From contig CM055103.1 in the NCBI GenBank assembly GCA_029204225.1, positions 38,528,954 through 38,592,953 on the forward strand: 64,000 bases of DNA. The letters run 5' to 3'. The position numbers and the translations under genes were made by a program. Under the pieces are notes generated by a model. It saw nothing but the letters and a program-made list of their open reading frames with translations, made no database searches and was not told where the DNA came from. Below are positions 6,712-40,341 of this stretch, piece after piece (within the stretch, counting starts at the first letter, position 1; the number at the start of each line of letters is the position of its first letter). Source of the DNA: Diphasiastrum complanatum (taxonomy: Eukaryota; Streptophyta; Lycopodiopsida; Lycopodiales; Lycopodiaceae).

Positions 6712-9700
6712 ATGGCAATGGCGATGGCAATCGGAGGAGGAGGCCTTTGTTGCAGTCCCAGTGATCGGTGTTGTCGTCAATCTCTACCCTGCCTCATCCT
6801 CGGAGCCACAGATGAATATGCCCTCTCATTTTCTTCTACTACCCTCACTCGTACTGCTCTTCCTTCGCCTCCTACTAGCGGTCGTCCTCGGATGGCCATG
6901 GAGCGAGGAATTCGGATGACAAGCAGTTTGGAGGAGGAGCGTCGTGAGAGTTTAGGTCTGCTCTGTTTTCCTTGATGTTGCTACTTCTTCCTCGTCTTCT
7001 TGTGAATTTGAGTTTGTAATGTGTGAGATAATTGGGGCTGAATCCGTGGGTGATTGTTTCGATGTGCTGCTGCTGATGGACTGGCTATTTATGGATGGAT
7101 TCGCAGGCCAAGAAGCCAGAATAGAACGGCTTTGGAAGCAGTTTTTTCGCGATCCTTCACAGTGGTGGGACAAAAGGTTTGATAAGGTGAGATACACAAA
7201 GTAGACAGATTGAGAACTCTCTACTTTGTGAGATGTTTATGTTTGTGAGATGTTGCTGGACCTTACTGCCGGGTGGGGGCTTAAGGTAGTTTCGATTTCT
7301 TTTTGGTTTCTGGAGGATATGTATACAGGTTGCAATCCTAACATGCACGCTAAATAGAGTGAGGGACATTCAAGATTCTTCAAATCATAAATCTCATGAG
7401 CTTGGTTTGATGCCCGCTCGGGTTTGACAGGGAAGTCCGGAAGCCCCCGATTTCGAGCACAAGACTACCGGGAAGGCGTTATGGATGAATGATAGGTTTA
7501 GGCCCTCTTGGCTGCAAGCAAAGCTTGCTACTCTCGACTCAGAACAATACGCTCTCAACCTTCACACCTGTATTACACTCAATTCCCGTTTTTCAATCAC
7601 TTTGACCGACCTTCTAAACCCTAAACCTAGCCCAACCCAATATATTCGAAGAGTCTGATCTTAATCTTGGTCTGTCATGCAGGCCAACCACTTTTGAAAA
7701 GAACACAACTTTGGGAGGAGTTCTTTTCAGATCCTTCACAGTGGTGGGACATTAGGAGTGATAAGAAGGTGAAACTGTTGTATCAGTATCCCATGGCATT
7801 CGTTCATTCATGTGTCAGTTCATTCAAGCACTCTAGTGGGCTAGTAGTTTGGCTGCTTAGATCTGTGTAATAGCTCAGTAGCTTCTTGTATTAAAATTAA
7901 GTAGGAGTTGGTGATTCAAGGTCTAGCCATGCTTTGATGATTGCAATCTACTCTATTCCGAATTCCAACATCTGTGATCATTCTAGTACCTTGTCAAGCT
8001 TGAGGCCGTCTACTCTATTCCCAGATTTGTGATCATTCAAGTAGGTTTGTTGGAACCTATGGCTCCTGAGGTTGCGTGCTCAAATCTCTTTTCAGAAAAA
8101 TCCGAAGTTTCCCGACTTCACACATAAGACCAGAAAGGAGGCATTATGGATTGAAAATCGGTTGAATCCTCCCTGGGTTCATGCCAAGCTAGCTGCCATA
8201 GTACAATGTCAAGAACAGGGGCAATCTGGTTTTTCAACACCTGAAGTCTCCGGTATGTTTCTGTATTTGCCATGGTCTCTTTTATTTGCCAGCCTTGGCT
8301 GGCTGAGAGGAGAGATGAATTTCCAGAGATGTTGAAGCTACATCTGCATTCCTTATTCATGTTTTGCCAAAGTTCTGATGCATGGCATGCAGGCAGAGTA
8401 GTGAGGATGGAACAGCTCTGGCGGGAATTTTTCTCAGATCCATCGCAGTGGTGGGACAACAGATTTACTAAGGTGTGGTTAGTAGTTACCCATCTTAAGC
8501 CCATTAAATATGACTTGTAAATTCAGTCTGTGAGGATGGGTTTGGACTTATTTCAGGCTTCAGTTGCTTTGGCTAATCACCTTTGACTGGAAAGTTTTAA
8601 ATGGTGCTAGGGTTATTTGTATGAGGCTGATCTGTTATGGTAGTCATCTATCTGTGATCTGTGTACTGTTATGCAGAAAAGTCCAAAATACCCAGACTTT
8701 ACACATAAAAGTAAACTTGAGGGCCTATGGGTTGATGGTTGGCTGAACCCCTCCTGGGTTAAAGCAAAGATCGCCACTATGGCTTTGGATCATATACAAT
8801 CCAGTGGTGGATTGAGATCACGGTATGGTTTTAATCTGACTGTTGAACGTGGATGTGGAGGCTCAGGTCTGAGATGGCATGTCTTCTTTGTTATTGGTCA
8901 TTCAAAATTGACACTTGTTCATATTTCCTTATGATCGTCATATGAATCATGCAGAGTGCCAAACTGCTTTTGCAATGGTGATAAGGTGAGGAAACTCTGT
9001 CAGGAGGGACGATTGAAAGAGGCACTACACATGGTGAAGCTTATGGTCCAGCAAACTATCAAAGCTCCAATCGGCGTCTACGTTTGCCTTTTGAAGGGGT
9101 GTGCCAGAGGGAAAGCTCTGGAGGAGGGCAAGCAAGTGCATGCCCTTATAGTCGACAGTAAACTTGATTCAAACATTTTTTTAGCAAACAACCTTGTTGA
9201 CATGTACTCCAAGTGTGGCAGTCTGTCAGATGCACACAATGTATTCAGCAAAATGTCCCGACGCAATGTGTTTTCGTGGACTGCCATAATCTCAGCATAT
9301 GCTGATAGCGGACAAGGTGTGGGGGCTATTAATCTATTTCAGCAAATGCAAGAGACAGGCATAGCACCGGACAAGGTTGCATTTGTTGTTGTCCTAAAAG
9401 TATGCGCCAGAATTACAGCCCTGGAGCAGGGCAAGCAGCTCCACTCTGACGTCATAAGAAGAGGCTTTGAGTCGGATTTGATTGTAGCGAACACCCTTGT
9501 TGACATGTATGCAAAATGCGGATGCACAGAGGATGCCCGTGAACTGTTCAACAACATGAGCGAACGAGATGTGGTTTCCTGGAATGTGATGATTGCGGGA
9601 TATGCACAGAATGGGCTCGTCAAGGAGGCCCTTGCTCTGTATAAGCAAATGAAGCAGGAAGGCGTGCAGCCAGACAATGTAACGTTTGTTGTTCTCCTAA

Positions 9701-10707
9701 AAGCATGTGCCAGCATTGCATCCCTGGAACAGGGCAAGCAGCTCCATTCGAACATCATTACGAGAGGCTTTGAGTCGGATGTGATTGTAAGAAGCACCCT
9801 TATTGATATGTATGCAAAATGCGGGTGCCTCGAGGACGCACGTGGACTGTTCAACAACATGAGCGAACGAAATGTGGTTTTGTGGACTGTGATGATTACA
9901 GGATATGCACAGAATGGGCTTGGCAAGGAGGCCCTTGCTCTGTATGAGCAAATGCAGCAGGAAGGCGTGCAGCCAAATAATGTCACGTTTGTTGTTCTCA
10001 TAAACGCATGTGCAAGCATTGCATCCCTGGAACAGGGCAAGCAACTCCACGCGCACATCATAAAGAGAGGCTTTGAATCGGATGTGATTGTGCGGAGAAC
10101 CCTTGTTGACATGTATGCAAAATGTGGATGCACAAACGAAGCCCGTGAATTGTTCAATAACACGAGCGAACGAGATGTGGTTTCATGGAACATGATGATT
10201 GCGGGATATGCACAGAATGGGCTTGGCAAGGAGGCCCTTGCTCTGTATGAGCATATGAAGCAGGAAGGCGTGAAGCCAAACAATGCCACATATAATTGTC
10301 TTCTTTCTGCATGCAGCCATTCTGGCCTAGTAGACGAAGGTCGTCATCTCTTTGATTCCATGTGTAAAAATCTCGGTGTCACACCAACCTTGGAACACTA
10401 TTCATGTATGGTAGATCTTTTTGGCCGTGCAGGGTGCCTGGCTGATGCTGAGGACTTCATTATTAAATTGCCAATTCAGCCTGATACTGTGATTTGGATG
10501 ACTTTGCTTGGTGCTGCTAGAAATTATGGCCACGTAGAAATAGGAAGACGTGCCTTTGATTGTATCTTGAAGTTGGAACCAGAAAATGCCTCAGCTTATG
10601 TGCTGCTGTCAAAAATCTATGCAACCGCCGGTAGGATGGATGAGGTAGCAAAATTAAGAAAAAAAATGAAGGCCATAGGTGTGAGTGCCGGAGTGCAGCT
10701 GGACTGA
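6712..10707 (+). CDS. PDF-PPR fusion protein, copy 1 (8 exons, 890 aa)
   Basis: Exons 6712-6943, 7107-7186, 7431-7569, 7683-7768, 8096-8252, 8393-8472, 8677-8822 and 8955-10707 join in frame with GT-AG introns; the same sites are kept in two paralogues. Residues 1-77 are Ser/Thr/Arg-rich, like an organelle transit peptide. Three PDF modules follow at about 84-140, 160-215 and 240-295; each has LWxxFFxDPSQWWDxR then PxxPDFxHK then ALW/GLW. From family knowledge this motif belongs to OSB proteins, where it binds single-stranded nucleic acid; no OB fold is present here. From about 320 a PLS PPR tract follows with repeats of exactly 303 bp. An organellar RNA-binding role is inferred. The tail is broken: relative to copy 3 five bases are missing near 10683, so the frame ends at VQLD while the E-type words (CSWTEVDNQVHACVVGD) continue in another frame to about 10760. 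There is no DYW deaminase. Start: ATG at 6712, aligned with the other copies. Confidence 0.85.
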
Positions 10708-11285
10708 AGTCGATAACCAAGTGCATGCCTGTGTTGTTGGTGATGCAAAAAGCAAGTGAGTTGGGCTGAACTGGATAGATTGGTGGGTTTGATGAAAGAT
10801 TCATCTTTCCTGCTCATCTCGATCCTGTTACAATTTGAAATCTGAATGCTCTGAATGAAGCAATCAGGTGGTTCGTTGTTGCAGGCAGGTGACATTCATT
10901 GTCCAAAATGGCCAGGCATTGATGGCAGGTCGACCCGGGGACCAGGTGATATTGATTGTCCAAAATGGAGATGGCAGGCCGACCCGGGGACTCGGGGAGG
11001 CTGAGGAGCTGCTGGGAAGCTCGATCTGGTGGACGAGATAATAGGATCGCGGGTTCATCTGAAGAAGCATTTCCTCCCTGCCAGACGTCCAGAACGGGCC
11101 GGGATCGCATCATGTGAAGACGCCCTAAGAATGGCGTCTGTTCTTGTGGAGATTATTGGTGATTGTAAGTGAAAAAAACGGAACTGCAGCTCATTCTGGT
11201 ATGGCAGAAGACTTGATACCTTGCCTATGAGACTTACCATAGGACAACTTTTATTGAACTCTTTTAATTCCATTGTCATGGCTAA
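10708..11285 (+). other. 3' flank of copy 1, with conserved 3' UTR block
   Basis: The first 60 bases are the out-of-frame remainder of the E-type tail. Positions about 11127-11200 (tggcgtctgttcttgtggag and onward) match 40508-40585 downstream of copy 3, so the duplicated segment extended this far. The matching block is absent after copy 2. The hAT element begins right after this block. Confidence 0.65.
10886..10990. repeat. Two-copy tandem repeat in the 3' flank of copy 1
   Basis: The words gtccaaaatgg (10901 and 10958) and gatggcaggtcgacccgggg (10921; close copy at 10970) occur twice in order. This block has no counterpart downstream of copy 3, so it arose or was inserted after the gene duplication. 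Confidence 0.7.
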
Positions 11286-11293
11286 GTTTGAAG
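11286..11293. repeat. Left 8-bp target-site duplication of the hAT element
   Basis: GTTTGAAG directly precedes the left terminal inverted repeat and recurs exactly at 16510-16517. An 8-bp duplication is diagnostic of the hAT superfamily. Confidence 0.9.
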
Positions 11294-11724
11294 CATAGTT
11301 GCACCGCGATTCGCGAATCGCGATTCAAAATCGCGATCAGAATCGCGATCCCGACTCGCGATTCGGGATTTTCCCAGAATCGTGTAGAATCGATTCTTTT
11401 TTTTGTTGAAATTTTTTTGTGCAATATGGGTATCAGATGAAAGCTCTGATCGAGGGGAGTATGATTGTGTAGTTTGCCGACTGTTTCAGGTGCAGGATGG
11501 TCCCTTTACGCTAAAGCTGCATCCCATATAAAAAAAAGTGAACACATTGGGGCATTCCTAGTGAACATAGCAGGAATCTCCCTTTCTCTGATTCTCCCTC
11601 TCTCTATCTCTCTCTGATCACGATTCACAACAAACGGAACTAAAACCATGCTGAACAAAAACCTAGCTGAATCATTCTGAACTTTAGCCTTAAATGAAAC
11701 AATTTTTGACAAAACAACCATACT

Positions 11725-11726
<2 letters not shown>

Positions 11727-11805
<79 letters not shown>
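11727..11805. repeat. (CT)n(CA)n compound microsatellite
   Basis: A CT dinucleotide run up to about 11762 passes directly into a CA run. It lies inside the hAT element, downstream of the transposase. Confidence 0.97.
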
Positions 11806-11806
<1 letters not shown>

Positions 11807-12146
11807 ATAAATCATAAACCATAAAACCGAAGTTATTGAACTAAAACCACAAAGAACAATACTGAATCACGACAATGCTGTGAATAGGATCATCATAATA
11901 TATAATATCGGGCCACATGGCACCAAAAAGGGGTACAATGATGTTCCATGAACGTAATGAAAACTATATAACTAAGGCTCGTCAGAGTCATGGTAGGATA
12001 AATCATCCGAATCTGTGGACTGCAGATCCCATGGGTCCGCAGATGAATCGGAACTGGAGGGAGCCATATGTCGTGGTGTGGCCCTGGCTCTGCTGCGTGC
12101 TCTGGATCCCTGCTGTGTGCACTGGCTCTGGACCACCCCCCTCTCC

Positions 12147-12186
12147 CTGCCTCTACCTCTGCCTCTGCCTCTGCCTCTGCCTCTCT
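12147..12186. repeat. (GCAGAG)n hexanucleotide tract at the transposase C-terminus
   Basis: On the coding (minus) strand the tract encodes alternating Arg-Gln or, in another frame, Arg-Gly. The transposase frame ends inside it at 12153. An overlapping frame runs on through Arg-Gly repeats to 11972 and ends in an acidic tail (DSDDLSYHDSDEP). A length change in this tract could switch which C-terminus is made. Confidence 0.8.
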
Positions 12187-15100
12187 CCCCTCCTCTGGCC
12201 CCCATCTGGCTGCCCCCAAGCCCTGTGTCTACTCCGTCGTGCCTGTGTGTCAGGTGGCCGTAACCCTACGCCCTGGGATGGCCCTACCCACTGTGATGAT
12301 GCCTGGCCGACGACTGCCTGTGATGCTCCACTCCTGTCTACAAAAAGAGTACTCAGCCCCCCCCTCCTAGAACCTCTAGGTCTCCCCCTAGGCCTACGTG
12401 CAGGAATGGCTGGCTCCTCCTCCGTCTCTGCATCAGGGTCCACTAGCAGGTCAGCCAGGTCATCCCCCTGTGCCTCCGCCCACATCTCCTCGTCCTCCTC
12501 TGTATCTCCCTCAACCCACTCCTCCTCCTCCACATAGTGTGCCCCGAGCATCTCTCCACCCTCCGAGACCTCGTCATCTCCCTCCTCAGCCCTCTCCCTC
12601 TGCCTCTCTGTCCTCCTCTGCTGCCGTAAAGCCCGTGCGTCAGCCTGTGCCTGTCTGTAGAGCTCTCTATGGATCTCATCATCCATCTCCTCCTGTGTGG
12701 GTGGTGCTCGAGGAGCAGCAGCTATCGAATCCACCAAGCAAGTGTCGGGGTCCACCTGCAACCAAAAACAATACATTGTTGTTAGGCAGGTATTGTGCAA
12801 CTCACTGCATATTTTGAAAGCAAATCAATTCACCAAAGCATACCAAGAAAAAAGGGGTGATGATGTGACTCACCTCGAGCATCTGACCCTCTCCTCGTGT
12901 GCGCCTCAGCATACGGCCGTTGGTGTTCACAAACACCAACCGCCTACACTGCTCGATGGACAACCTGTTCCTCTTCTGCGTGTGATACAAGGCCCAAGTG
13001 CTCCAATTCCGCTCACAAGCTCCTGCAGAACAGTCCTGTGCAAGGACTCTCTCAGCCAATCGCCTCAGGTCACCTGTGCTGCGCCCGTGGATGCACCACC
13101 ATGTAACGGGCCTCAGCTGATCCTCCCTCCGCCGACTCTGCTCTCCATCGAATGGAAATTGGAAGCGCTCAAATGCGAGCAGCTGGCTTGCAATGTTGGC
13201 CAGCATCGGACCTATTGGCAAAAGGAAAAACATGGCACATGTAAGACCCCTCAAATTCAGACACTACCAATGAGTACAATACTGCAGTAACATTGCTACC
13301 AAATGATTTCTCACACGTACCTGGTCCGGGCCATACGCGCTCCGTGTACTCCACCCATCCCCGGTGCAGCTCCGGATCGTCTCTCTCTCGTGTAGAGCGC
13401 CACAAGGGGTGTAACATGTGGGCTACGGCGTGGATGGGTCGGTGGAAGTAGTCCCATCTGGCCTCCCAGATGCGTGAGATCTCGCGCCTCCTGCAGCAGA
13501 CAAATTACAACAATCACTAAGCCATAACATAAAAGAAACGCATCAGACTCGAGTGAGAAACAACAAACTAGACACTGAAGAGTCATACCTATGCTCGTCC
13601 AAGGCTGACAACAGAATCCCCTCGCCGATGCGCTCCATGAACTCGTAAATGAGACCGAGGGTGCACCCCTCACGGTCTACCAGACGCAGCACTCTGTAAA
13701 TGGGTAGTAGGATCCCACTAATCTCCTCAGCAGCTCTCCAGAACTCGTCGCCGTACACAGTGGACTGGAAAAATGCCGAATGGGGGAGGTCTGTAAAGTC
13801 CCGGAAGGCCACGCTGGAAACCATCCTCCGCAATGCATCCTTCACCACCACCAATCGCTCTAGCACCAAGAAGTAAAACGCAAAGTGTGTGGGTGCGGGC
13901 TTCTTCAGGTTTAGGGTGGAGAAGGTGCGGAACAGGGCCAACACACGCCTCTTCCTGGTGACAAAAGTGACCAGGCGCATGGCCGTAGAAGTGATCTGCA
14001 ACACAAACACCTAGTAAGAAAGTTTAGACAGTAGTTGAGACGTGGTTAGCAGCATCGAAGGAAGAAAGCATAGCAAATAGAACAAACTATACCTCTCTGA
14101 TCCATGGAAGCGCACATAGGTCATGGATGAGCAAGTCTATGCAATGTGCAGCACAGGGTGTCCACACAATGCTGGGGTGCTCCCTCATCATAATCTCGCC
14201 CATCTGCTTGCAGTTCAAGGCGTTGTCGGTGATAACCTGAACCACGTGCTCATCTCCGATGTCAGCAATAACATCTCTAATGACCTTCCATATGAAATCG
14301 GCTGTGATGGCGTCACCACCTCGAGTGGCATCCACGCCACGTAGGAATACTGTGCCAAGCGGGCAAGAAACCAAGACATTGATGACGGATCGCCGACGAA
14401 TGTCGGTCCATCCATCGCTCAGTATCGTGCATCCATACCTGTCACAAAACACCCATTAGCTACATGCAAAAATTACGGCACCAGTAAATCCTAAACACAT
14501 GCAAAGAGATTACAAAGACAAATTACTTACTGCTGCCAAGCTGAGCGAATGGAACTCAACTCCCGCGTGATGGTCTCCTCCTCCTGACAAAGCAACCTGC
14601 CTCGTAGTGCCTCTCGCCTGGGAGGTGTCCATGTAGCATCCACGGCCGCCATCTGTGCACAGAACTCCCTGAACACCCAAGGGTCAGCAACAGCAAAGGC
14701 AATGCCGCACTCGTAAAAGAACTGGCCACACAGTCGAGTGCAACGGGCCTGCTGCTCTCTCTGCCAGCCGCATCGATCAAGGGTCTGCTGCTTGGGCCTA
14801 ACCCCTCTCTGCTGTGTATATGGTGCTCGTGGTCTGGCATGCCCAACGGATGGCTGATCTGTGGGTGTGTCACTCTCTCTGGCAACATCTGCCGAAGCAT
14901 GTGGTGCATCTGCTGCCGAGGAGGAGGGTCGAGAAGCACCCGCTGCTGCTGAACCAACATGCTCATCTGATGGTCCTGCTGCTGCTGCGGATGGAACTGA
15001 AGGTGCTCTACTGGGCCTTGCACCTGAACCATGCTCTGCCCGTGCTGTACTGGGCCCTGCAGCTGTACCATGCTCTGCCCGTGATTTTACTGGGCCCTGC

Positions 15101-16509: not shown

Positions 16510-16517
16510 GTTTGAAG
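16510..16517. repeat. Right 8-bp target-site duplication of the hAT element
   Basis: GTTTGAAG directly follows the right terminal inverted repeat and is identical to 11286-11293. Confidence 0.9.
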
Positions 16518-18610: not shown

Positions 18611-20275
18611 TGTACATTGTAATTCACACATGAGAAACCAAATTGCCACTAGCCTAGGTAGGTTAGATCTCAATCATAGGGATTAGTTAGGTTAGTTGGT
18701 CATGATTCCTAAATTATAGGACCAAACTCCTCAAATCAAAGAGGTAGATGAGTAACCTAACTACTAAGTTGGCAAACCTAAACCTACTAACACATGCTGC
18801 CAACAAAAAGTATGATCCATATCATACTTTGATTTGATCATTCCATTGAGGCAAGATTAAAATTTGAGAGCTTTTTGACTATCTCGAGTTTTTCCCTCAT
18901 TTGTGTGTTGATCTTATGATGCAATTGTAAAATAAAATTGATTAGGATAATTCTCTATACAATTACCAATAATCTCCACAAAAATAGACACCATCCTTAA
19001 AATGGTGGAATCGGTTTGCATCCATCACGCTGATCTCATGCCCCATCGTTCTGAAATGATCTTTCTGGCATTGTGGTAGTCACAGCACATGCCAAGATTC
19101 TTCTTGATGAGGATAGTGTCCCAGGAGGCATGCTGATTAGCCCAAAAGCAAGGCCAGCTCCTCGCTGTGTTTGCACAAAGCAATCTCCTCTTCATCATCC
19201 AGCACAAATCTCAAATCAAGTATACACCCATTAGAAAAGAACCAATCATATCTGTAGTGACATAAAGAAAACATACTCCATTCTCCATTCCCATCAATTT
19301 CCTCACTCTCATAGGCATGCTCATAAGCCTCGTAATCAATGTTATCATCTTAAATGTTGTTTTGCACCATAATCATGTCGTCTTTTAAGTTCCTCAAGAT
19401 CATAGAATTGATTCATGGGCTCCTATTGATCTCCAGTTCCACATTGCATCTTGTGTTGCTCATCCACACTTATCGTACAGACTAGTCTTCAGTTTCAAAT
19501 TGGAATTGACCTTGACTTGACCTTGACCTTGACATTCATCGTCGTTGGACTCTAGTTCATCTTGACCATCGAATGATTCAATTGCATCATTTGCAAACCA
19601 ACCTTCCATGACTTGTTCATTTAGATCATCGTATTGTTGGTCGTCATTGAAATTTTTAGATTAGTGGTCTAGTAGAAAATCGTCTTGAAACTTATAAGTT
19701 TCATCAGCAGATTCATCACCTTGGTCATAATCTTTAGTGTAATCTTCACTTTATCCCAACGGCCTTCCATGACATTATTAGAACTATCTTCGCAATGTGA
19801 GTGGTTGTGATCTTCTTGTTCATAATTCCAATCCATTGGAATATTAGGGATTCCATTGGATCAGCTTTTGTGAGTAGCACCCTCCAATTGCTATGCTTTT
19901 ATGTCCATTTTTGGCGGCCGAGAACTTCGATTTTGTGAGGAGCTTAAACTCTCGTTCCAACACTTTCTTGATCGCTATTTCGCGCTATCCACCCCAAACG
20001 GCCAGGTTTCAATCTATGCGACAGATCAAGGCTTACAATGTCACCATCCTTGCAGCTCGCGGCTAACAGCAGCCACAGGTCGCGCATCAACCCAACTAGA
20101 AACAGGCCTTCGGATTCATGCTTCAATTTCAGAATGTGCACAACAGCAGCAGGAGTTGTGTCTCCACAGCCGTTTCTTCCATATCACCCACAAACAACAA
20201 GACACAATTGAGTTTTGCGAACAAAATACAGAAATTGTGCGTTTTGTATCCAGCACTGCACTTTTTCTTTTGTGA
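18611..20275. other. Intergenic and 5' flank of PDF-PPR copy 2
   Basis: No gene is supported. A short simple stretch of ttgacc words lies near 19505-19535. From about 20255 the sequence (cttttgtgattggaagtc and onward) aligns with the leaders of the other two PDF-PPR loci, marking the 5' edge of the duplicated unit. Confidence 0.5.
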
Positions 20276-20314: not shown

Positions 20315-23300
20315 ATGGCATTAACAACACCAATAGCAATGGCAATCGCAGGAGGAGGCCTTTGTTGCAGCCCTAATGATCGGTGTTGTCATCATCACGT
20401 CTTCTGTTTTGATCATTCTCCTATTCCTTATCAATCTCTAACCCTTTTCTGCCCCCGTCTCATCCTCGGAGCCTCAAAGGAATACGTGCTCTCATTTTCT
20501 TCTACTTCCCTCACTTGTCCTCCTACTAGCGCTCGACCTCGGATGGCCATGGGGCGAGGAATCCGGATGGCAAGTAGCTTGGAGGAGGACCGTGAGAGTT
20601 TGGCTTTGCTTTGTTTTCTTTGATGTTGCTACTTCTCCTTTTTCTTCTTCTTGTGAATTTAAACTTGTTATCCGTGATAGAATTAGGACTAATTCCCCTG
20701 GCTGCGTGTGTTTATGTTACTCTGTTGTTTTGATGTGCCGCTGCTGATGGGTTGGCTATGTATGGATAGGATCGCAGACCAAGCAGCCAGAATAGAAGGG
20801 CTTTGGAAGCAGTTCTTTCGCGATCCTTCGCAGTGGTGGGACAAAAGGTTTGATAAGGTAGATTTGCTCTTTTTTGGGTTTTTAAAAGAATTACATTCAG
20901 TGAGTGACATTCCGTGTGGCAGGATGCTTTAGATCATGGCTCTCATGAGCTTTGCTTGATGCCCGCTTGGGTTGCACAGGGAGGTCCGGAAGCCCCCGAT
21001 TTCGAACACAAAACTACTGGGAAGGCGTTATGGATGAATGATAGGTTTAGGCCCTCTTGGCTACAAGCAAAGCTTGCTACTCTCTACTCAGCACAATTTG
21101 CTTTCAACCTTCACACCTGTATTACACTCAACTCGCGTTTCCCAATCACTTTGACCGACCTCTTAAACCCTAAACCCAGGCCAGCCCAACCCATTAAATG
21201 ACTCTGATCTTCTTAATCTCGCTTTGTCACGCAGGCCAAGCATCTTTGAAAACAACGCAACTTTGGGAGGAGTTCTTCTCAGATCCTTCGCAGTGGTGGG
21301 ACAATAGGAGTGATAAGAAGGTGAAACTGCTGGTATGAGAATCCCATGGAATTCATACATTCACGTTTCAATTCATTCAAGCGCTATAATGGACTAGTGC
21401 TTTGGCTGCTTAGATTTGTGTAATAGGTCTTGCAGTTGGTGGTCCAAGGTCTAGCCATGCTTTGATGATTGCAAATCTATTCTATTCCAAATTCCAACAT
21501 CTGTGATCAATTCTAGTACCTTGTCAGAGGCCGTCTACTCTATTCCCAGATTTGTGATCATTCTAGTAGGTTTGTTGGAACCTATGGCTCCTGAGGTTGC
21601 GTGCTCATATCTCTTTTCAGAAAAATCCGAAGTTTCCCGACTTCACACATAAGACCAGAAAGGAGGCATTATGGATTGAAAATCGGTTGAATCCTCCCTG
21701 GGTTCATGCCAAGCTAGCTGCCATGGTACAATGTCAAGAACAGGGGCAATCTGGTTTTTCAACACCTGAAGTCTCCGGTATGTTTCTGTATTTGCCATGC
21801 TCTCTTTTATTTGCCAGCCTTGGCTGGCTGAGAGGAGAGATGAATTTCCAGAGATGTTGAAAGCTACATCTACATTCCTTATTCATGTTTTGCCAAAGTT
21901 CCGATGCATGGCATACAGGCAGAGTAGTGAGGATGGAACAGCTCTGGCAGGAATTTTTCTCGGATCCATCGCAGTGGTGGGACAACAGATTTACTAAGGT
22001 GTGGTTACCCATCTTAAGCCCATTCAATATGACTTGTAAATTCAGGCTGTGAGTATGGGCTTGGACTTATTCAGATTTAAGTTATTTTGGCTAATCACTT
22101 TTGAGTTGAAAAGTTTTAATTGGTGCTAGGGTTATGTGTATGAGGCTGATCTGTTTTGGTAGTCATCTATCTGTGATCTGTGTACTGTTATGCAGAAAAG
22201 TCCAAAATACCCGGACTTTAAACATAAAAGGACACTTGAGGGCCTATGGGTGGATGGTTGGCTGAACCCCTCCTGGGTTAAAGCAAAGATCGCCACTATG
22301 GCTTTGGATATACAATTTATGGAGGGATTGAGATCACGGTATTTTCTTGATCTGATTGTGGAATGTGGATCTGGAGGCTATGGTCTGACAATACGTCTTC
22401 TTTGTTATCGGTCATTTAAAATCGACACTAGCTCAAATTTCCTATGAATCATATGAATCATGCAGGGTCCCCAACTCCTTTTGCAATGGTGATAAGGTGA
22501 GCAAACTCTGTCAGGAGGAACGATTAAAAGAGGGACTACATATGTTGAAGCTTATGGTCCACCAAACTAATAAAGTTCCAATCAGCATCTATGTTTGCCT
22601 TTTGAAGGGGTGTGCCAGAGGGAAAGCCCTGGAGGAGGGCAAAGAAGTGCATGCCCTTATAGTCCACAGTAAACTTGATTCAAACATTTTCTTAGCAAAC
22701 AACCTTGTTGACATGTACTCCAAGTGTGGCAGTGTGTCGGATGCACACAAAGTATTCAGCACAATGCCCCAACACAACGTGTTTTCATGGACTGCTATCA
22801 TCTCAGCATATGCTGATAGCGGACAAGGTGTGGAAGCTATCAATATGTTTCAGGAAATGCAAGAGACAGGCATAGCGCCAGACAAGGTTGCATTTGTTGT
22901 TGTCCTAAAAGTGTGCGCCAGAATTACAGCCCTGGAACAGGGCAAGCAGCTTCACTCTGACATCATAAGAAGAGGCTTTGAGTCGGATTTGATTGTAGCG
23001 AACACCCTTGTTGACATGTATGCAAAATGCGGATGCACAGAGGACGCCCGTGAACTGTTCAACAACATGGGCGAACGAGATGTGGTTTCGTGGAATGTGA
23101 TGATTGCGGGATATGCACAGAATGGGCTCGGCAAGGAGGCTCTTGCGCTGTATGAGCAAATGAAGCAGGAAGGTGTGCATCCAGACAATGTGACGTTTGT
23201 TGTGCTCCTAAAAGCATGTGCCAGCATTGCATCCCTGGAACAGGGCAAGCAGCTCCACTTGCAAATCATAAAGAGAGGCTTTGAGTCAGATGTGAGTGTA

Positions 23301-24254
23301 CGGAACACCCTTGTTGACATGTATGCAAAATGCGGGTGCCTACAGGATGCACGTGAACTGTTCAACAATGTGAGCGAACGAAATGTGGTTTTGTGGAATG
23401 TGATGATTACAGGATATGCACAGAATGGGCTTGGCAAGGAGGCCCTTGCTATGTATGAGCAAATGCAGCAGGAAGGAGTTCAGCCAAACAAGGTCACATT
23501 TGTTGTTCTCCTAAACTCATGTGCCAGCATTGCAGCCCTGCAACAGGGCAAGCAGCTCCACTCGCACATTATAAAGAGAGGCTTTGAGTCGGATGTGATT
23601 GTACAGAGCACCCTTGTTGACATGTATGCAAAATGCGGATGTACAAAGGACGCCCGTGAATTGTTCAACAACATGAGCGAACGAGATGTGGTTTCGTGGA
23701 ACGTGATGATTGCGGGATATGCACAGAATGGGCTTGGCAAGGAGGCCCTTGCTCTCTATGAACAAATGCAGCAGGAAGGCGTGCAGCCAAACAATGTCAC
23801 GTGTATTTGTGTTCTTTCTGCATGCAGCCATTCTGGCCTAGTAGATGAAGGTCGTCAACTCTTTGATTCCATGTGTAAAAATTTTGGTGTTACACCAACC
23901 TTGGAACACTATGCATGTATGGTAGATCTTCTAGGCCGTACAGGGTGCCTGGTTGATGCTGAGGATCTCATTATGAAATTGCCAAATCAGCCTGATAGTT
24001 TGGTTTGGAGGACTTTGCTTGGTGCTGCTAGAAATTATGGCCATGTGGAAATAGGAAGACGTGCCTTTGATTGTGTTGTGAAGTTAGAACCAGAAAATGC
24101 CTCAGCTTATGTGCTGCTATCAAACATTTATGCAGCTGCTGGTAGGATGGATGAGGTAGCAAAGATAAGAAACGAAATGAAGCACATAGGTGTAAAAAAG
24201 TGCGGGGGTGCAGCTGGATTGAAGTTGATAACCAAGTGCCTGCCTTTGTCATAG
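20315..24254 (+). CDS. PDF-PPR fusion protein, copy 2 (8 exons, 916 aa)
   Basis: Exons 20315-20591, 20778-20857, 20980-21118, 21235-21320, 21621-21777, 21919-21998, 22196-22338 and 22466-24254 join in frame with the same sites and phases as copy 1. Exon 1 encodes MALTTPIAMAIAGGGLCC and a Ser/Arg-rich leader. PDF modules: LWKQFFRDPSQWWDKR with PDFEHK; LWEEFFSDPSQWWDNR with PDFTHK; LWQEFFSDPSQWWDNR with PDFKHK. The PPR tract has the same four 303-bp units but differs from copy 1 at several expected base-selecting positions. One base is missing near 24190 relative to copy 3, so the frame ends in CGGAAGLKLITKC; the E-type words RGCSWIEVDNQVPAFVIGD lie in the adjacent frame, open to 24433. Organellar RNA binding is inferred. 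The start is the ATG aligned with copies 1 and 3; a second ATG 21 bases on could also serve. Confidence 0.84.
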
Positions 24255-24364
24255 GTGATACAAGTCATCTACAAAGCAAGGAGATTTGGGCTGAACTGGA
24301 TAGATTGGTGGGGTTGTTGAAGTCTTATGACATCAACTCAACAACAACGAGTCAACATTCATGG

Positions 24365-29640: not shown

Positions 29641-29795
29641 ATCGTTGCTTTGTGAAGGATGTGAACCAAAGTTCAAAGTCGTTGTGGATGGTATAAGAGA
29701 GCCCAACACTAAATTGTACAGGTTGAATGCCTCAATTAGGGGGCAACATGGGCTTATCTCGTCCATTCCATCACAAACTGAACTGTGGCATAAAA

Positions 29796-30954: not shown

Positions 30955-30967
30955 TGCTATCAGAGCT
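30955..30967 (+). promoter_or_regulatory. Primer-binding site of copia B
   Basis: TGCTATCAGAGCT follows the LTR end directly. It differs by one base (G to C) from the usual TGGTATCAGAGC site. Confidence 0.8.
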
Positions 30968-31110
30968 ATTTTCATAGCTTGATAAGCTTCTACATTACAA
31001 GACTCTACTAGCTGATAGAGTAATTGTTTTCTTGTTCTGTATTTTCAGTATCAGATTTTCATACTTAAGTCACTGATAGTTTTCCTTATCACTTAGATTA
31101 ATTCTTCCAC

Positions 31111-31773
31111 ATGGATTCCCAAGGGAAAGCCAGTCCTATTATGGACAAGCTTGATAGAGCCAATTACCATCTGTGAAAATTTAAGATGAAAATTGTACTA
31201 ATGGCTAAAGAATTGTATGACGTAGTTACAGGTACAGAAGGAAAACCCGAAGCAGACGACGCAACAATCGCCAGATGGAAGCTAAAGGATGGAAAGGCTT
31301 TCGCGTTGATCATCCTCAACATCACGGATACCCAGATCGGCCATGTATCCGAGGCTCAGACATCGAAAGAAGTCTGGGACATCTTGAGCACACTATACGA
31401 AGTGCGAGATATAGCTTCCAAGCTACATCTCAGAAAAAAATTCTACTTCCTCAAGATGACAAATGATGATTCTCTACAGAATCACATTAATCAATTCAAG
31501 AACCTGCTAAGACAAATGGCCGCTGTCGGATCCGTCATAGACGATCAAGACACAGTGATGCAACTGCTTACAAGCTCTTATGACAGTTGGGTGATGATCA
31601 TCACGACTCATCCAGAATTGACTCTTTCGAGAGTCATCACTATGTTGTTGCAAGAAGACATGCAGATGAATGAAGCCTCAAGTTTCTCAGCTGCTTCTCA
31701 TGCCTTGTACACCAACAAGAGCATGACAAAGCAGAAGAAGAAGAAAGACCCGAAGGAATCAAAGCTAGTCTAG
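31111..31773 (+). pseudogene. Copia B gag, capsid part
   Basis: It starts with ATG at 31111 (MDSQGKASPIMDKLDRANYH), then a TGA at 31173 at the conserved Trp of the NYxxW motif, then an open 195-codon frame of UBN2 type (VWDILSTLYEVRD, LHLRKKFYFLKM, QHINQFKNL-like block). It ends at a TAG at 31771. One reversion-sized change disables translation from the normal start. Confidence 0.85.
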
Positions 31774-31797
31774 AAACCAGCTCAGCACAAAGAACAG

Positions 31798-32283
31798 TTG
31801 AATCCGCAGACAAAGAAGAAGCTGTTTTGCAGATATTACAAGCGAAACAACCACGAAATTCAAGACTGCCGGATACTTCAAGCGAAGAAAAACAGCAAGG
31901 GGCAGTCGAATCAAGTGGAAAATGCAGCTGCAGAAGCTACACAACCTATTCAAGAAGCGGATCATGATGCCTTCATGACTAGCCATCAAGGAGCATCTGG
32001 TGACAGTTCTTGGTTCCTGGATTCCGGAGCCACTCAACATATGACTAGCCTCATTGGCTGTTTCGAGTCCTATACATACACCTTACAGTACCCAAAATAT
32101 GTCCACCTTGGTGACAATAGCACACAAGCTATTAAAGGTGAAGACACTATAAGATTAAGCTTTGCAAATGATCAGTCTAAGCTACTCTCTAAAGTCATGT
32201 ATGTACCAAATTTATCTGCGAATCTGCTCTCTGTAAGCAAAATCACAGATCTAGGACATAGAGTAGAATTCGAATGTGATTAG
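31798..32283 (+). pseudogene. Copia B zinc-knuckle region and protease
   Basis: The nucleocapsid motif reads CRYYKRNNHEIQDC, where CRYCKKxGH...C is usual: the second Cys is Tyr. The aspartic protease site WFLDSGATQHMTS is intact, and VMYVPNLSANLLSVSKI follows. The frame stops at 32281. The same Cys to Tyr change is present in the related minus-strand element at 60650. Confidence 0.85.
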
Positions 32284-33399
32284 TGTAAAGTAGTTGATAG
32301 GACAGACAAGATCCTAGCACTCGGAAAGAGCCATGAATATTTGTATAAATAAAGTCATTGCTTTTCTGCCTCTAGTCAGGCACTCGTCAGTACTTCTATT
32401 CATGCAAATAAAGGTTTACTTTGGCATTATAGACTTGGTCATTTAAATCATGCTGCTGTACAACAACTGTCTAGACAATCTATTGTTTTTGATCTCAACT
32501 ATCCTCGCGAAAAAGTCGAGTTACATGTCTGTCAAGACTGTCTAGTTGGTAAACAGACTAGGAAACCATTTAAATCAAGCCATCAACATATTGCTAGAGG
32601 ATTGTTAGATGTTGTACATTCAGATATTTGTGGCCCGATGAAAATCCTTCGCTGAAGGATGCCAAGTATTTTATAACCTTTATTGATGAATTTTTCAGAA
32701 GGACTACGGTGTATTTTATAAAGAAGAAATCAGAAGTCTTCAACTGCTTCAGAATCTTTAAGGAGCGTGCAGAGAAGAAGACTGGAAGGATGATCAAGGC
32801 CCTCATATCAGACAACGGTGGAGAATATATCTCTATCGAGTTTAAGGAGTATTGCCAGAGCCAAGGCATTGAGTAGCAATTTATCACTCCTTACAGTCCT
32901 CAGACGAATGGCTTAGCCGAGAGGAAGAACCGTACTCTGGTTGAATCTACCAAATGTATGCTATCGCATGCATCGTTGCCCTTGGAGATTCTAGGCTGAA
33001 GCTGTCTCCACTGCAGCCTACGTCCAGAACAGATGTTTGACCAAGGCTCTCTCAGTCAAGACACCCCACGAGGTGTGGACAGGCTCTAAGCCTTCTTTGA
33101 AGAACCTAAGAGTGTTTGGGTGTATTGCCTACGCGCAGATCCCAAAAGACACGAGGAAGAAATTGGACTTCCAAGGTCTCAAGACTATCCTGATCGGATA
33201 TACTTCATCTGATAATACCTATAAGTTGTATGATCCTGATACCCAGCAAATCTTGTATAGTCGAGATACAGTCTTTATCGAGGATCAGTTCGTCTACTAC
33301 AAAGGCAAGGATATTGCTCAAAAAGAACCTTCATCACCTGCCGTTGACACGACAGTCCGAGCTTCTGGCTCAGGGTTGAAGGGTAAACCTAAACCCTAG
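32284..33399 (+). pseudogene. Copia B integrase, broken
   Basis: GAG-pre-integrase (LLWHYRLGHLNHAAV, CQDCLVGKQTRKPF) is followed by the integrase core with HSDICGPM, TFIDEFFRRTTVYF, DNGGEYIS and YSPQTNGLAERKNRT. Stops occur near 32653, 32874 (TAG before QFITPY) and 32996 (the Trp of RFWAEA reads TAG), and a one-base insertion lies near 32983. The C-terminal part from 33037 is open (TPHEVWTGSKPSLKNLRVFG). Confidence 0.85.
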
Positions 33400-36260
33400 G
33401 TCTAAGAAGGATATGTATATATATCTTTGTAAATATTGTGAAATTGATGATGAAAAATCGAGTTTTTCCACTTCCATCAACATTGTCTTTGAGTGGTGAG
33501 GTAAATATATCATATGTGAGTGATCTTATGAATTAATTACATTGTTTGGAAGACACTGGAGGTGATTACAGGTCTAAGATGCTTGCTGCACTTTACTTTT
33601 GTATGTTTGATCAAATCTATGTGCCTTTTGTGGAGTTAAATGCCAAAATAGCTAGTTTTTGTAACTAGTCTTGATTCTAGTTCATAGTTTGGATCTAGAT
33701 TTTTGATTTGTACATCCTCCATCAATTTTAGGATTGATTGGGATTGAATTTGCTGTAAAATTTTGTCAGCTTAAACATGGAGTACAATTCGATTGTCAAG
33801 AATCACATGTTACTCCAATAATCAGAAGTTATGATTGTATTTTTGATAATAATCTATTTGGAGTTTCTTCTGAACATGAATCAAGTGAGCAATTGAGATA
33901 CCAAAGAATGTCTTTCTTGAATTCCCATTGGAAAGTTGATGGTGACAAAATTTTTGCTTCATATCGAAGTGTATATAACAACATCATCTTTGAAGAGCAA
34001 TATGCTGATTGTTACGTCCACGTCAAGTATGTGAGATTCAGAATAATTCCTGACATGGATAGCCGGTACTCTAGTGTAAGGTTATTAGCTACGCCACATC
34101 ATTCCAGGCTTGGCCAATAATGTAACTAATAATCTAATGAGGGGCCAGATACTCTAATTGGACCTATGGAGTTTGTGCTTGTTGATTGATAGCTTTTATG
34201 CAAGAATAGGAGGTCAAATGCTTTTGATAGGATTGGAGGGATCCTAGAGAGAATCTTCTCTAGCTTTTGGAGAGTATATCCTATAGGAACTCGTCCATCT
34301 CCTCATTGTTTTTTTTAATTTCAGAAGCTAGGATCGCCTCCTCTCTTGCATTCAATCACCTTGGCTTGGGGGTGAAGTGGTTAGGGTTTTGACTAGCCAT
34401 TTCCTATTGGTTGGGTGGTTTTGCTCCACAGGTGTCCTTTTTGTTGCATGTAATAGGAGGATCTAAGGAGATCTTCACTTGGCGATCGTAATACCGATAA
34501 TCTTTGCAATGACAAAAATGAAAATGAGTTATTCAGATATTAGATTAATAATGGCATGTTTGAGTATTATAGTGATGTAAATATCATTAGGATGTGGCCA
34601 AACATGGAAGATACATTCTTTGACTTGGAGCATCACTACTTTGGATCATCAAGAAGTGTTCTAAACATCCTATTAGTAAAGGAGATCATCAATGGATTTG
34701 TGGCAGTCCATCTTCATCATGACACTGTCACTAATCTGGTTTATACCGATGGACTAAGAGAAAATCCAAATCCCTTCCTGCTGGATTAAATAGAGAGGAC
34801 ATTAGCATCAAATCATGTACAACAATACGAAGCTAACGGAATTGGATAGCTTATCCAATCAAGAAAGATATTGAAGAAGAAGACTATCGAATCTTGTTGC
34901 TTGGATCCTGTCAACCCATGTAAAACTAATGCAATTAAAGACAATCATGTGTTTCATCAATTACTTCTCAATGATCTTATTAAAAATATATGGGATCAAT
35001 TTGTAGATCAAAGGTTTTTTCTATAGAAGATTGCAACAACCTTGTTCCACAAAAAAAAAAAATGAAAGCTGAACCTAAGGCAACGATATTTGATAAATAC
35101 GAGATGGCTACTGACAAGAATAATACCTGGAAAGATGTTTCCTACTTCAAGGTGGCCAGATATTTTTCACCTTCCACCAAAGGATTTATGGAGCATGGCA
35201 CTCGACAAAGAACTACACGACATGTAATTAGCCCACAAGCTCACTAAATGCAATGCTAAATATAGTCATGGAGCTAAATTAGACTAGAATTAGTCATTAG
35301 GATTGTCAATAAAGTGGCTCGACAACCGCGCTATATTTGCAATAGCAGGATTGTAACAATGGTTGTAAGGCCTATTTTAGCCAAATAGTAGAGGCACAAA
35401 AGACCACTATAAATAGTTGAGATCGTGCTAAATTTGGAGGCTATTATTCATTTGTTTAATTTGAACTCTGTGTTCTCTTGTGTTTCTGAAGCTTCTCTTG
35501 GAAAGCTTTCTTGAATGGAATTGGTGGTTCATGTGCCTAAAATCACATGAGAGCTTTGATCATGCTCTAGAATCAGTTCTTGCATTTCCGTGCTTATTTG
35601 ATGATCATGAATGGACTAGATGTTTTAATGCCAGCACATGACGCCCTTTATGAACAAATGGAGTTTCTGGGAGGTGTCTTCAACATCTCTAGTCCACCTT
35701 ATTAAGAAAGGGCCTTTTGCTCGAATTTTGGAATGCTTTTTACATATCTCGATATTGGTGTTTGGTAGTCTGATAATCAATAAATGGTTCTTCTTAAGGT
35801 GCTTTCACGTAACAAAAAACTTAAATGACATGTCTAAACTGTATTTTTAAAATAGGCACGACGGGTGTACCGTGTTGGGGAAAAAAAAAACCTTTGAAAA
35901 ATGTTCTTTAAATATGGGTATGCATAGAAGCTAAAGATTTTATGTTCAACATTATAAATCAACTAGCAAGCATGGATACAACAAGCTAAATTGTAATCTT
36001 GTAAATTCAAAGGCATATTGATACTCGAAGAAGACGCAACTTTTTGTAATTCTCTATATGCTATTAATCTCACATGTCTTTGGCGTACATTTGATATTTG
36101 AAGTCTTGCTTTGATTTAATATATGTTTCAAAAAGTTTGTTCATTCAAAGTTGTAATTGTGATCTTTTCCTTTTTGTTTTCTTTTAGGGTTGTCCATTCA
36201 CAAGACACGTATCAGCATATCTATTATCAAACTCCATGCAATGCTAGAATTTCATTTCTG
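33400..36260. other. Unassigned stretch with weak coding-like frames
   Basis: Open plus-strand segments at 33734-34120, 34556-34789 and 34990-35247 have fairly protein-like composition (for example HHYFGSSRSVLNILLVKEII and ATDKNNTWKDVSYFKVARYF) but match no family that I recognise, and stops separate them. They could be exons of an unknown gene or a dead transposon. The rest up to the leader of PDF-PPR copy 3 shows nothing recognisable. Confidence 0.35.
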
Positions 36261-36286
36261 ATGTGCTCCACTTCTTCTTTTGTAAC

Positions 36287-36372
36287 CTGGAAGCCAATCC
36301 AAGAAAAAAGCAAAGCAAAGTACAACAGGCTGGAAGCCAATCCAGAAAAAAACAAAGCAAAGCACAACAGGC
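36287..36372 (+). repeat. 43-bp tandem duplication in the leader of PDF-PPR copy 3
   Basis: ctggaagccaatcca begins at 36287 and 36330; each is followed by an A-rich caaagcaaag tract and acaacagg. Copies 1 and 2 have a single version. It lies just before the start codon at 36376. Confidence 0.85.
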
Positions 36373-36375
36373 ATC

Positions 36376-39300
36376 ATGGCAACACCACCAACGGCAATGG
36401 CAATCGCAGCAGGAGGAGGAGGGCTTTGTTGCAGTCCAAACGATCGGTGTTGTTGTCATTACGCCTTTCGTTCTGATCATCAATCTCTAACCCATTTGTG
36501 CCCCCGCCTCATACTCGGAGCCACAAATGAATTTGCCCTCTCATTTTCTGCTAATTCCCTCACTTCTACTGCTCTTCCTTCTCCTCCTACTAGTGGTCGT
36601 CCTTGGATGGCCATGGTGCCAGGAATTCGGATGACAAGTAGCTTGGAGGAGGAGCGTGAGTGTTTAGCTCTGTTCTGTTTTCATTGATGTTGCTATTTCT
36701 TCCTCTTCTTCTTGTGAATTTGTTTCTGTTATGTGTGATAGAATTAGCACTATTTCCGGTGACTGCGTGTGCTTCTGTTACTCTCTTGTTTCGATGTGCT
36801 GCTGCTGATGGGTTGGCTATGAGTGGATGGGTTCGCAGGCCAAGCAGCTAGAATAGGACTTTGGAAGCAGTTTTTTCGCGATCCTTTGCAGTGGTGGGAC
36901 AAAAGGTTTGACAAGGTGAGATTCAAAGTAGAGACATTAAGGACTCTCTACTTTGTGAATGTTTATGTTTGTGAGATGCTGCTGGACCTTACTGCCGGGT
37001 GGGTGGGCTAAATTCAGAAAAGGTAGTTTTACTTTCTGTTGGTTTCTGGAAGAAATACACCAGATTGCAATCCTACGCATACTAAGTAGAGTGAGTGACA
37101 TTCGGTTTGGAATTGCTCTCTTCAGCTTGGCTTGATACCCGCTTGCGTTTAACAGGGAAGTCCGGAAGCCCCCGATTTCGAACACAAGACTACCGGGAAG
37201 GCGTTATGGATGAATGATAGGTTCAGGCCCTCTTGGCTGGAAGCAGAGCTTGCTACTCTCAACTCAGAACAATTTGCTCTCAACCTTCACACCTGTATTA
37301 TACTCAATTCGCGTTTCCCAATCAGTTTGGCCGACCTCCTAAACCCTATACCCAGCTTAAACCTACACAACTTTCTTTTGCAGGCGAAGCATCTTCGAGA
37401 ACGACACAACTGTGGGAGGAGTTCTTCTCAAATCCTGCACAGTGGTGGGACAGCAGGAGTGATAAGAAGGTGAAACTGCTGGTACCAGTATTCACTTCAT
37501 TCAAGCGCTATTGTGGCCTAGTACTTTGGCTGCTTAGATTGTTGTATTAGAATTTGTTGCAGTTGGTGGTTCAAGTCTAGCCATGTTTGATGACTACTCT
37601 ATTCCAAATACTAACAGCTGTGATCATTCTAGTTTCTTGTGAAGCTTGGAGGCCGTCTACTCTTGATCATTCTAGTAGGTTTTCTTGAAGCATTGGCTCC
37701 TGACGTTGCGTGCTCGCATTTCTTTCCAGAGAAATCCGAAATTTCCCGACTTCACACATAAGACCAGAAACGAGGCATTATGGATTGAAAATCAATTCAA
37801 TCCTCCTTGGGTTCATACCAAACTAGCTGCCATGGTACAATGTCAAGAACAGGGGCAATCTGGTTTTTCAACACCTGAAGTCTCTGGTATGTTTCAATTT
37901 TTGTCATGCTCTTTTTTAATCGCTGGCTGAGGGGAGAGATGAATTTCAGAAATTTCTAAAGCCACATCTACATTCCTTAATCAAGTTTTGGCAAAGTTCT
38001 GATGCATGCTGGTTTAGAGCATGCAGGCAGAGTAGCGAGGATGGAACAGCTCTGGCAGGAATTTTTCTCAGATCCGTCACAGTGGTGGGACAACAGATTT
38101 ACTAAGGTGTTGTTCTCCATCTTGAGCCCGTTGAAGATGCCTTGTAAAGTGAAGCTGTAAGGATGGGTTTGGACTTATTTCGGGCTTCAGTTGCTTTAAG
38201 CTAGTTGTCCTCTGTCTGTGATTTGTGTACTGTTATGCAGAAAAATCCAAAATACCCGGACTTTAGACATAAAAGTACACTTGAGGGCCTGTGGGTTCAT
38301 GGTTGGCTGAACCCCTCCTGGGTTAAAGCAAAGATGGCCACTATGGCATTGGGTCATACACAATCAAGTCCTGGATTGAGATCACGGTATGGATTCAATC
38401 TGTGTGGAATGTGGATTTGGAGACTCGGGTCTGAGAGTACATGTCTTCTTTGTTATTGGTCATTTAAAATTAATAGTTGTTCAAATTTCCTTATGATCAT
38501 CATATGAATCATGTTGGGTGTCCAGCTCCTTTCACAAGGATGATAAGGTGAACAAACTCTGTCAGGAGGGACGATTGAAAGAGGCACTACACATGGTGAA
38601 GCTTATGCTCCAGCAAACTACCAAAGCTCCATTCGGCGCCTATGTTTGCCTTTTGAAGGGGTGTGCGAGAGGGAAAGCCCTGGCGGAGGGCAAGCAAGTG
38701 CATGCCCTTATAGTCCAAAGTGAACTTGATTCAAACATTTTCTTAGCAAACAACCTTGTTGACATGTACTCCAAGTGTGGTAGTCTGTCTGATGCACACA
38801 AAGTATTCAGCACAATGCCCCAGCGCAATGTGTTTTCCTGGACTGCTATCATCTCAGCATATGCTGATAGCGGACAAGGTGTGGAGGCTATTAATCTATT
38901 TCAGCGAATGCAAGAGACAGGCATAGCACCAGACAAGGTTGCATTTGTTGTTGTCCTAAAAGTCTGTGCCGGAATTAAAGCCCTGGAGCAGGGCAAGCGG
39001 CTCCACTCTGACATCATAAAAAGAGGCTTTGAGGGCGATGTTGTTATAGGGAGCACCCTTGTTGACATGTATGCAAAATGCGGGTGTCTAGAGGACGCAC
39101 GTGAATTGTTCAACAGCATGAGCGAACGAAATGTGATTTCGTGGAATGTGATGATTACAGGATATGCACAGAATGGGTTTTGCAAGGAGGCCCTTGCTCT
39201 GTATGAGCAAATGCAACAGGAAGGCGTGCAGCCAGAAAATGTCACGTTCGTTGTTCTCCTAAAAGCATGTGCTGGTATTGCAGCCCTGGAACAAGGCAAG

Positions 39301-40341
39301 CAGCTCCACTCCCACATCATAAAGAGAGGCTGTGAGTCGGACGTGATTGTACAGAGTACCCTTGTTGACATGTATGCAAAATGCGGGTGCTTAGAGGACG
39401 CTCGTGAATTGTTCAACAACATGACCGAACGAGATGTGGTTTCATGGAACGTGATGATTGCGGGATATGCACAGAATGGGCTTGGCAAGGAGGCCCTTGC
39501 TATGTATGAGCAAATGCAGCAGGAAGGCGTTCAACCAAACAAGGTCACGTTTGTTTTTCTCCTAAAAGCATGTGCCAGCATTGCAGCCCTGGAACAGGGC
39601 AAGCAGCTCCACTCGCACATCATAAAGAGAGGCTTTGAGTCGGATGTGATTGTACAGAGCACCCTTGTTGACATGTATGCAAAATGCGGATGCACCAAGG
39701 ACGCCCGTGAATTGTTCAACAACATGACCGAACGAGATGTGGTTTCGTGGAATGTAATGATTGCGGGATATGCACAGAATGGGCTTGTCAAGGAGGCCCT
39801 TACTCTGTATGAGCAAATGCAACAGGAAGGCGTGCAGCCAGACAGTGTCACGTATATTTGTGTTCTTTCTGCATGCAGCCATTCTGGCCTAGTAGACGAA
39901 GGTCGTCATCTCTTTGATTCCATGTGTAAAATTCACGCTGTCACACCAACCATGGAACACTGTGCATGCATAGTAGATCTTTTATGCCGTGCAGGGCGCC
40001 TGGCTGATGCTGAGGACTTCATCAACGAATTGCCATTTCAGCCTGATAGTGTGGTTTGGAGGACTTTGCTTGGCGCTGCTAAAAATTATGGCAATGTGGA
40101 AGTTGGAAGACGTGCCTTTGACTGTGTCGTGAAGTTGGAACCAGAAAGTGCCTCAGCTTATGTGCTGCTATCGAACATTTATGCAGCTGCCGGCAGGATG
40201 GATGAGGTAGCAAAGATAAGAAAAGATATGGAGGACATAGGTGTGAGAAAAGTGCCGGGGTGTAGCTGGATTGAATTTGATAACCCAGTGCATGCCTTTG
40301 TTGTAGGTGATGCCAGTCATCCAGAAAGCAAGGAGATTTGA
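36376..40341 (+). CDS. PDF-PPR fusion protein, copy 3 (8 exons, 926 aa)
   Basis: Exons 36376-36655, 36839-36915, 37156-37294, 37384-37469, 37730-37886, 38027-38106, 38241-38386 and 38526-40341 join in frame. Three PDF modules are present (QWWDKR/PDFEHK, QWWDSR/PDFTHK, QWWDNR/PDFRHK). The PPR tract is the best-kept of the three and its tail is the longest: VPGCSWIEFDNPVHAFVVGD then SHPESKEI and a stop. The stop comes from five missing bases after gagatttg; the next words (ggtgggcttgatgaaag) still match copy 1. The usual acceptor of intron 7 (TGCAG in copies 1 and 2) reads TGTTG here. The first downstream AG, at 38524-38525, restores the frame with a shorter junction, and I used it. An organellar RNA-binding role is inferred, as for the others. 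There is no DYW domain. Confidence 0.83.

Follow-up and report, generated by a model that had tools for sequence, protein, structure and literature searches.

The 64,000-nucleotide window analysed here, positions 38528954-38592953 of contig C12 in the 1.74 Gb assembly of the lycophyte Diphasiastrum complanatum, carries three tandem genes, A, B and C, on its plus strand. Sequence reading and modelling gave all three a common eight-exon layout (Table 1), the gene models being spliced in silico from the DNA letters alone. Each predicted protein consists of a leader, three PDF modules, a PLS-type pentatricopeptide repeat (PPR) tract and an E motif, in this order. As gene models, these PDF-PPR fusions are confirmed. 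The initial annotation had read three modules and a PPR tract in a single frame at each locus, and the modelling bears this out: the joined coding sequences of A, B and C measure 2673, 2751 and 2781 nt (891, 917 and 927 codons including the stop), contain no internal stop and would yield proteins of 890, 916 and 926 residues, exon 8 contributing 583, 595 and 604 of these.

All modelled introns are GT-AG, and their phases are 1, 0, 1, 0, 1, 0 and 2 in each of the three genes. At the exon-8 acceptor, A and B read GCAG and C reads GTTG, so that the AG is lost in C; the copy C model splices instead at the AG that comes 9 nt later, with the frame preserved. The leader exon 1 encodes about 77-93 residues, and the first 60 residues include 3 acidic residues in each copy.

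Table 1. Positions of the modelled genes and associated features within the window.
Feature	Position	Strand	Details
PDF-PPR gene copy A	6712..10707	+	exons 6712-6943, 7107-7186, 7431-7569, 7683-7768, 8096-8252, 8393-8472, 8677-8822, 8955-10707
PDF-PPR gene copy B	20315..24254	+	exons 20315-20591, 20778-20857, 20980-21118, 21235-21320, 21621-21777, 21919-21998, 22196-22338, 22466-24254
PDF-PPR gene copy C	36376..40341	+	exons 36376-36655, 36839-36915, 37156-37294, 37384-37469, 37730-37886, 38027-38106, 38241-38386, 38526-40341
PDF modules 1-3 of copy A (exon pairs 2+3, 4+5, 6+7)	7107..8822	+	halves at 7115-7553, 7694-8218, 8398-8799
Copy A exon 8, PLS PPR tract and E motif	8955..10707	+	Pfam PPR_2 5e-94, E_motif 1.2e-17; frameshift before E2
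Decayed DYW-domain relic behind copy C	40368..40535	+	tblastn with the E2-DYW end of the relative L052: 55% identity, E 3e-18

The three PDF modules of each gene follow the pattern LWxxFFxxPxQWWDxR / PDFxHK. Modules 1 and 2 are bounded by phase-1 introns, and module 3 starts in phase 1 and ends in phase 2. Flanked in this way, modules 1 and 2 would each form a symmetric unit that could be shuffled or duplicated with the frame intact. The exon-8 PPR tract comprises four L-S-P triplets of 101 residues each, followed by L2, S2 and E-motif sequence, in agreement with the PLS type assigned to it in the initial annotation. On the PPR side, Pfam returned PPR_2 and E_motif in copy B as in copy A, E_motif in all three copies and a partial Eplus in copy C only. 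On the N-terminal side, no Pfam PDF model matches the modules of A-C, and the first 340-354 residues of each protein gave no SSB/OB match (Pfam, E up to 1), a search that a very divergent OB fold could escape, though the leader exon offers it no more than about 77-93 residues. A search of solved structures with the PDF region returned four matches at E 10 or below, of which none convinces; the best is a glutamate-gated chloride channel (E 0.005).

Several features lie beyond the initial annotation: the E motif, E2 and DYW relics behind exon 8, a genome-wide family and relatives with a DYW domain. A, B and C have no C-terminal DYW deaminase beyond relics. The frame shifts before E2 in A and B, and C reads to SHPESKEI and then stops. 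Relic pieces of copy A were located by tblastn at 10685-10747 in another frame and past the stop at 10765-10812 and 11127-11159, and the last residues GDYW are still present behind this copy; in copy B, an E2 relic lies in another frame at 24197-24322. By eye, each of A, B, C and the additional copy L054 has its first C-terminal break at a different site. Breaks that differ in this way and follow long open frames fit both recruitment of a deaminase in trans and decay. As read from the DNA, A-C are C-terminally shortened family members that have lost DYW. A further DYW relic, on the minus strand at 18966-19229, is partly an inverted copy of the 40369-40481 stretch.

Relatives elsewhere in the genome display the complete arrangement. 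In loci L051 and L052, the last PDF half, the PPR tract, the E motifs and a full DYW_deaminase (positions 1-93 of 93 in Pfam) lie in one open frame; by eye, these two loci and L053 retain half of module 2 and the whole of module 3. The stretch equivalent to intron 7 is open in frame in all three (L051 2691-5741, L052 2025-5390, L053 2972-4786), which would place PDF and PPR in one frame even unspliced. With the E2-DYW end of L052 as query, the best 150 of 547 candidates divided into 101 matches at 73-100% identity and 49 at 58-67%. At least 58 of the 101 close matches are preceded on the same strand, at a distance of 1-7 kb, by a PDF match, a lower bound because the linkage used 150 of 236 PDF matches and 100 of 199 PSQWWDNR sites.

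The distant matches provide further evidence. Window-module matches and PSQWWDNR sites alone placed a PDF upstream of 0 of the 49 distant DYW loci; exact PDFKHK sites raised this to at least 20 of 49, at 0.5-8 kb, with none of the 49 showing such a site downstream or on the opposite strand. The PDFKHK sites are listed in full from C1 up to C8:54.4 Mb; within this part, 9 of 20 distant DYW matches are linked. In all 20 linked distant loci, PDFKHK stands within the open frame of PPR and DYW, 5-27 residues from the frame start, a result that argues against the alternative raised in the initial annotation of transcripts containing exon 8 alone. Counted from PDFKHK, 19 of the 20 loci have 648, 749, 850, 951 or 1456 residues left to the end of the frame (648+101n, 101 residues being one P-L-S triplet), and one on C18 has 854; many of the 20 form equal-length pairs, so that the number of distinct genes may be near twelve. 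Such regular spacing argues strongly for a single protein with PDF, PPR and DYW, and is consistent with a PDF half that opens an exon at the position of the intron between the two halves in the window genes. The design of the family, as predicted from these frames, is PDF-PPR-E-DYW, as in organellar RNA-editing factors.

To gauge the extent of the family, exact motif patterns were counted across the genome. PSQWWDNR occurs at 199 sites (0 for the reversed control) and PDFKHK at 326 (4 for the control), and the PDF region of copy A has at least 236 matches on most large contigs (150 best of 970 first-look candidates scored). Sampled loci were searched with profiles of both PDF halves and of the P repeat, all built from the window genes. 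PDF was present in 35 of 35 loci (L021-L055) and was followed by P repeats on the same strand in 26; the remaining nine break off before a tract could be seen and partly coincide with loci among the 26. These 26 loci correspond to 22 genomic places, which include the three window genes and several near-identical copies. The 22 were picked as top PDF matches, except for the window genes and three others, chosen for long open frames or as top matches at greater length. PDF precedes PPR on one strand and in one order in 22 of 22 places, with 439-484 nt between the last PDF half and the first P repeat.

The exon structure of the modules recurs as well. In the window and 12 loci, strong first halves (PDFa) end with a lysine or AGG codon and GT in 35 of 35 cases and strong second halves (PDFb) have AG near their start in 37 of 37; this splice-site test spans 16 and 13 bases, drops halves below 40 bits, and is weak for AG alone. 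Among ten 61-residue modules from four places, mean identity is 0.79 between modules at the same position (12 pairs, minimum 0.72) and 0.55 between modules at different positions (33 pairs, maximum 0.62), indicating that the three-module layout predates these duplications. No PDF match better than E 2.2 was found in the 60 kb on either side of the window. The three-gene array is repeated about 155 kb upstream (C12:38380694-38440537; L021, L023, L025, L037, L054), where the fourth copy, L054, is added with a DYW domain that is nearly complete yet out of frame. This upstream array may be a segmental duplication, or an unmerged haplotype or assembly effect.

Pairwise Nei-Gojobori comparisons between the copies provide evidence of constraint. 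For the PDF exons, dN/dS is 0.35, 0.36 and 0.29 in the three copy pairs, copy A against B and C giving 0.35-0.36; for exon 8 it is 0.31, 0.42 and 0.37, and for the leader exon 0.41-0.55. The ratio is significantly below 1 in all six PDF and exon-8 comparisons (Fisher p 0.008 to 1e-5 for PDF, 2e-8 to 3e-12 for exon 8). Purifying selection thus acts on the PDF and PPR parts alike. Synonymous divergence (dS) between copies is 0.12-0.25 and intron divergence 3-32%. Introns 4-6 of A and B (7769-8676 and 21321-22195) are far less diverged than the other introns, which suggests gene conversion between A and B. Within the PPR tract, 9 of 18 code positions (residue 5 and the final residue of P and S motifs) differ among the copies, compared with 91 of the 444 remaining positions (p 0.006); in L motifs, 1 of 10 differs. 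The pattern fits diverging RNA targets.

The origin of the modules was approached through the OSB (organellar single-stranded DNA-binding) genes of the same genome. The Pfam SSB profile gave 12 genomic matches, four above the cut-off. Three of these four (L056-L058) look by eye like ordinary mtSSB genes and have no PDF in the 4.9-5 kb read, and the fourth is a twin on C14; behind weaker OB-type matches, L059 and L060 have no PDF in the following 4 kb. A candidate OSB gene lies on C4, where an OB-type match at 14868730 has an EWWDNR site 11 kb downstream. The EWWDNR exon reads KLAKEKLWQEFFENPSEWWDNRVNK and has, by reading, a phase-1 acceptor and a phase-0 donor, like exons 2, 4 and 6 of the window genes. 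This PDF first half scores 41 bits against the PDFa profile from the window modules, and about 970 nt further on lies a PDFKHK site. On C13, a second OB-type place has an EWWDNR site 21.5 kb downstream; both places are regarded as candidate OSB genes. A PDF exon and intron phases common to the candidate gene and the window genes suggest an exchange of exons, by shuffling, between OSB and PPR genes. The OSB relationship proposed in the initial annotation gains support within this genome, where the candidate OSB gene has a PDF exon bounded in the same way.

By eye, copia-type retroelement fragments lie between and behind the genes (31177-33399, 48581-49093, 51453-52732 and 56422-59315), and hAT-type transposase-like open frames occupy 12802-14455 on the minus strand. 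Upstream of copy A, a 416-residue open frame is found at 2237-3487 on the minus strand.

The combination of a genome-wide family, a DYW domain in relatives and shortened C-termini in A-C points to RNA editing as the natural setting of these genes. We consider it probable, at roughly 60%, that A-C and their kin are organellar RNA-editing-type PPR proteins with OSB-derived N-terminal PDF modules. Of the interpretation in the initial annotation, the PDF-PPR fusion, the PLS tract and the OSB link stand; a stand-alone tether appears a less natural setting than RNA editing, given that relatives end in DYW and A-C are shortened. In the proposed mechanism, the leader would carry the protein to mitochondria or plastids and the PPR tract would select a short stretch of RNA. 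Near this stretch, the PDF modules would add sequence-independent single-strand affinity, a grip that would act in cis and may be likened to the help that MORFs give to flowering-plant editing factors. The DYW domain would then deaminate a cytidine. In copies A-C, separate C-terminal mutations would have removed DYW; if active, these copies would serve as site-recognition proteins that borrow a deaminase in trans, or they may be heading to decay.

Several observations weigh against this interpretation. The C4 OB match is under the Pfam cut-off (24.4 of 26 bits), and by eye the 4 kb behind it contain copia-like sequence. Among the matches listed, 58 of 158 PDF clusters, duplicates included, have a close DYW downstream, so that DYW-less members may be common. 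No PDFKHK was found, in the exact spelling searched and with sites listed in full up to C8:54.4 Mb, at 29 of the 49 distant DYW matches or at 15 further DYW matches, and no PDF lies within 1.5 kb of the eight top PPR_2 loci (L001-L008). A-C themselves are decaying at the C-terminus, and the literature found, some of it available in part, gives no record of PDF binding to RNA.

Three other explanations were weighed. The window copies could be decaying remnants of editing factors in which the PDF-PPR part is still open because decay is recent. The C-terminal breaks at separate sites in A, B, C and L054 would fit this, as would the lost splice acceptor of copy C, but frames of 890-926 codons remain open at the dS observed, with dN/dS of 0.29-0.42 in the PDF and PPR parts, a constraint that may partly predate DYW loss; we regard this account as unlikely, while giving it some weight. 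Alternatively, the PDF modules could anchor the protein on organellar single-stranded DNA, in the nucleoid or on the displaced strand of an R-loop, with PPR and editing functions acting on nascent RNA and PDF making no RNA contact. According to the available part of a review on mitochondrial DNA replication (PMC6963530), the PDF motif of AtOSB1 is sufficient for binding single-stranded DNA and OSB proteins have one to three PDF motifs, a range that includes the three modules found here. Against it, the first 340-354 residues of A-C gave no SSB/OB match, and this anchoring role appears improbable. Finally, exon 8 could be an independent PPR gene with PDF exons of an OSB-like neighbour upstream by chance, which we consider very improbable indeed, for although the exon-8 open frame starts upstream of its acceptor, the phases at intron 7 match, the first in-frame Met of exon 8 sits at the edge of the PPR tract and leaves no room for a leader, A-C have no OB match upstream, and PDF, PPR and DYW share single open frames elsewhere in the genome.

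A wider proposal may be put forward tentatively, with the odds somewhat against it: PDF modules might be the standard N-terminus of a large class of editing factors in this lycophyte, an old fusion predating the split of DYW genes that are only about 60-67% identical in E2-DYW, which would supply a built-in single-strand grip without MORF-type helpers and tie editing to the nucleoid. Flowering-plant PPR editing factors act in assemblies with helpers such as MORFs, and editing in early-branching plants (moss) is described as simpler, as set out in the available text of PMC10482289. Single-strand-binding modules carried in cis, with 158 PDF clusters among the matches listed, would offer a direct test of the helper role. 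Designed PPR editors could also draw on the modules as a naturally occurring component, and PDF-PPR-DYW genes would link organelle DNA maintenance with RNA editing. The symmetric phase-1 modules common with an OSB-type gene point to an origin by exon shuffling.

No description of a PDF-PPR fusion was found in the literature, where the accessible part of PMC6963530 handles OSB and PPR proteins apart; subscription papers lay largely outside the search, so a prior description is possible. The phrase 'organellar single-stranded DNA' together with 'DYW' was found in no paper of the collection searched. Like OSB proteins, A-C carry PDF motifs of about 50 residues with the Pro-Asp-Phe signature, and exon boundaries are common with the candidate OSB gene; unlike them, A-C have no OB match, and PDF stands before a PPR tract rather than behind an OB fold. 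Moss PPR proteins with added domains (RRM, LAGLIDADG, SMR, NYN, CBS and SAP; PMC9459714) likewise join PPR to another domain, with an N-terminal RRM in the PPR4 type, but PDF is not listed in the portion of that source available, and the types seen there are P-type whereas the genes here are PLS-type. From DYW-type PLS editing factors such as moss PPR56, as presented in the available text of PMC10482289, the window genes differ in their N-terminal PDF modules and in the absence of DYW from A-C. They resemble these factors in the PLS tract, for which the same source describes RNA recognition through residue 5 and the final residue of P and S motifs, in the P2-L2-S2 arrangement and in the E motif, and the relatives L051 and L052 share the DYW_deaminase as well.

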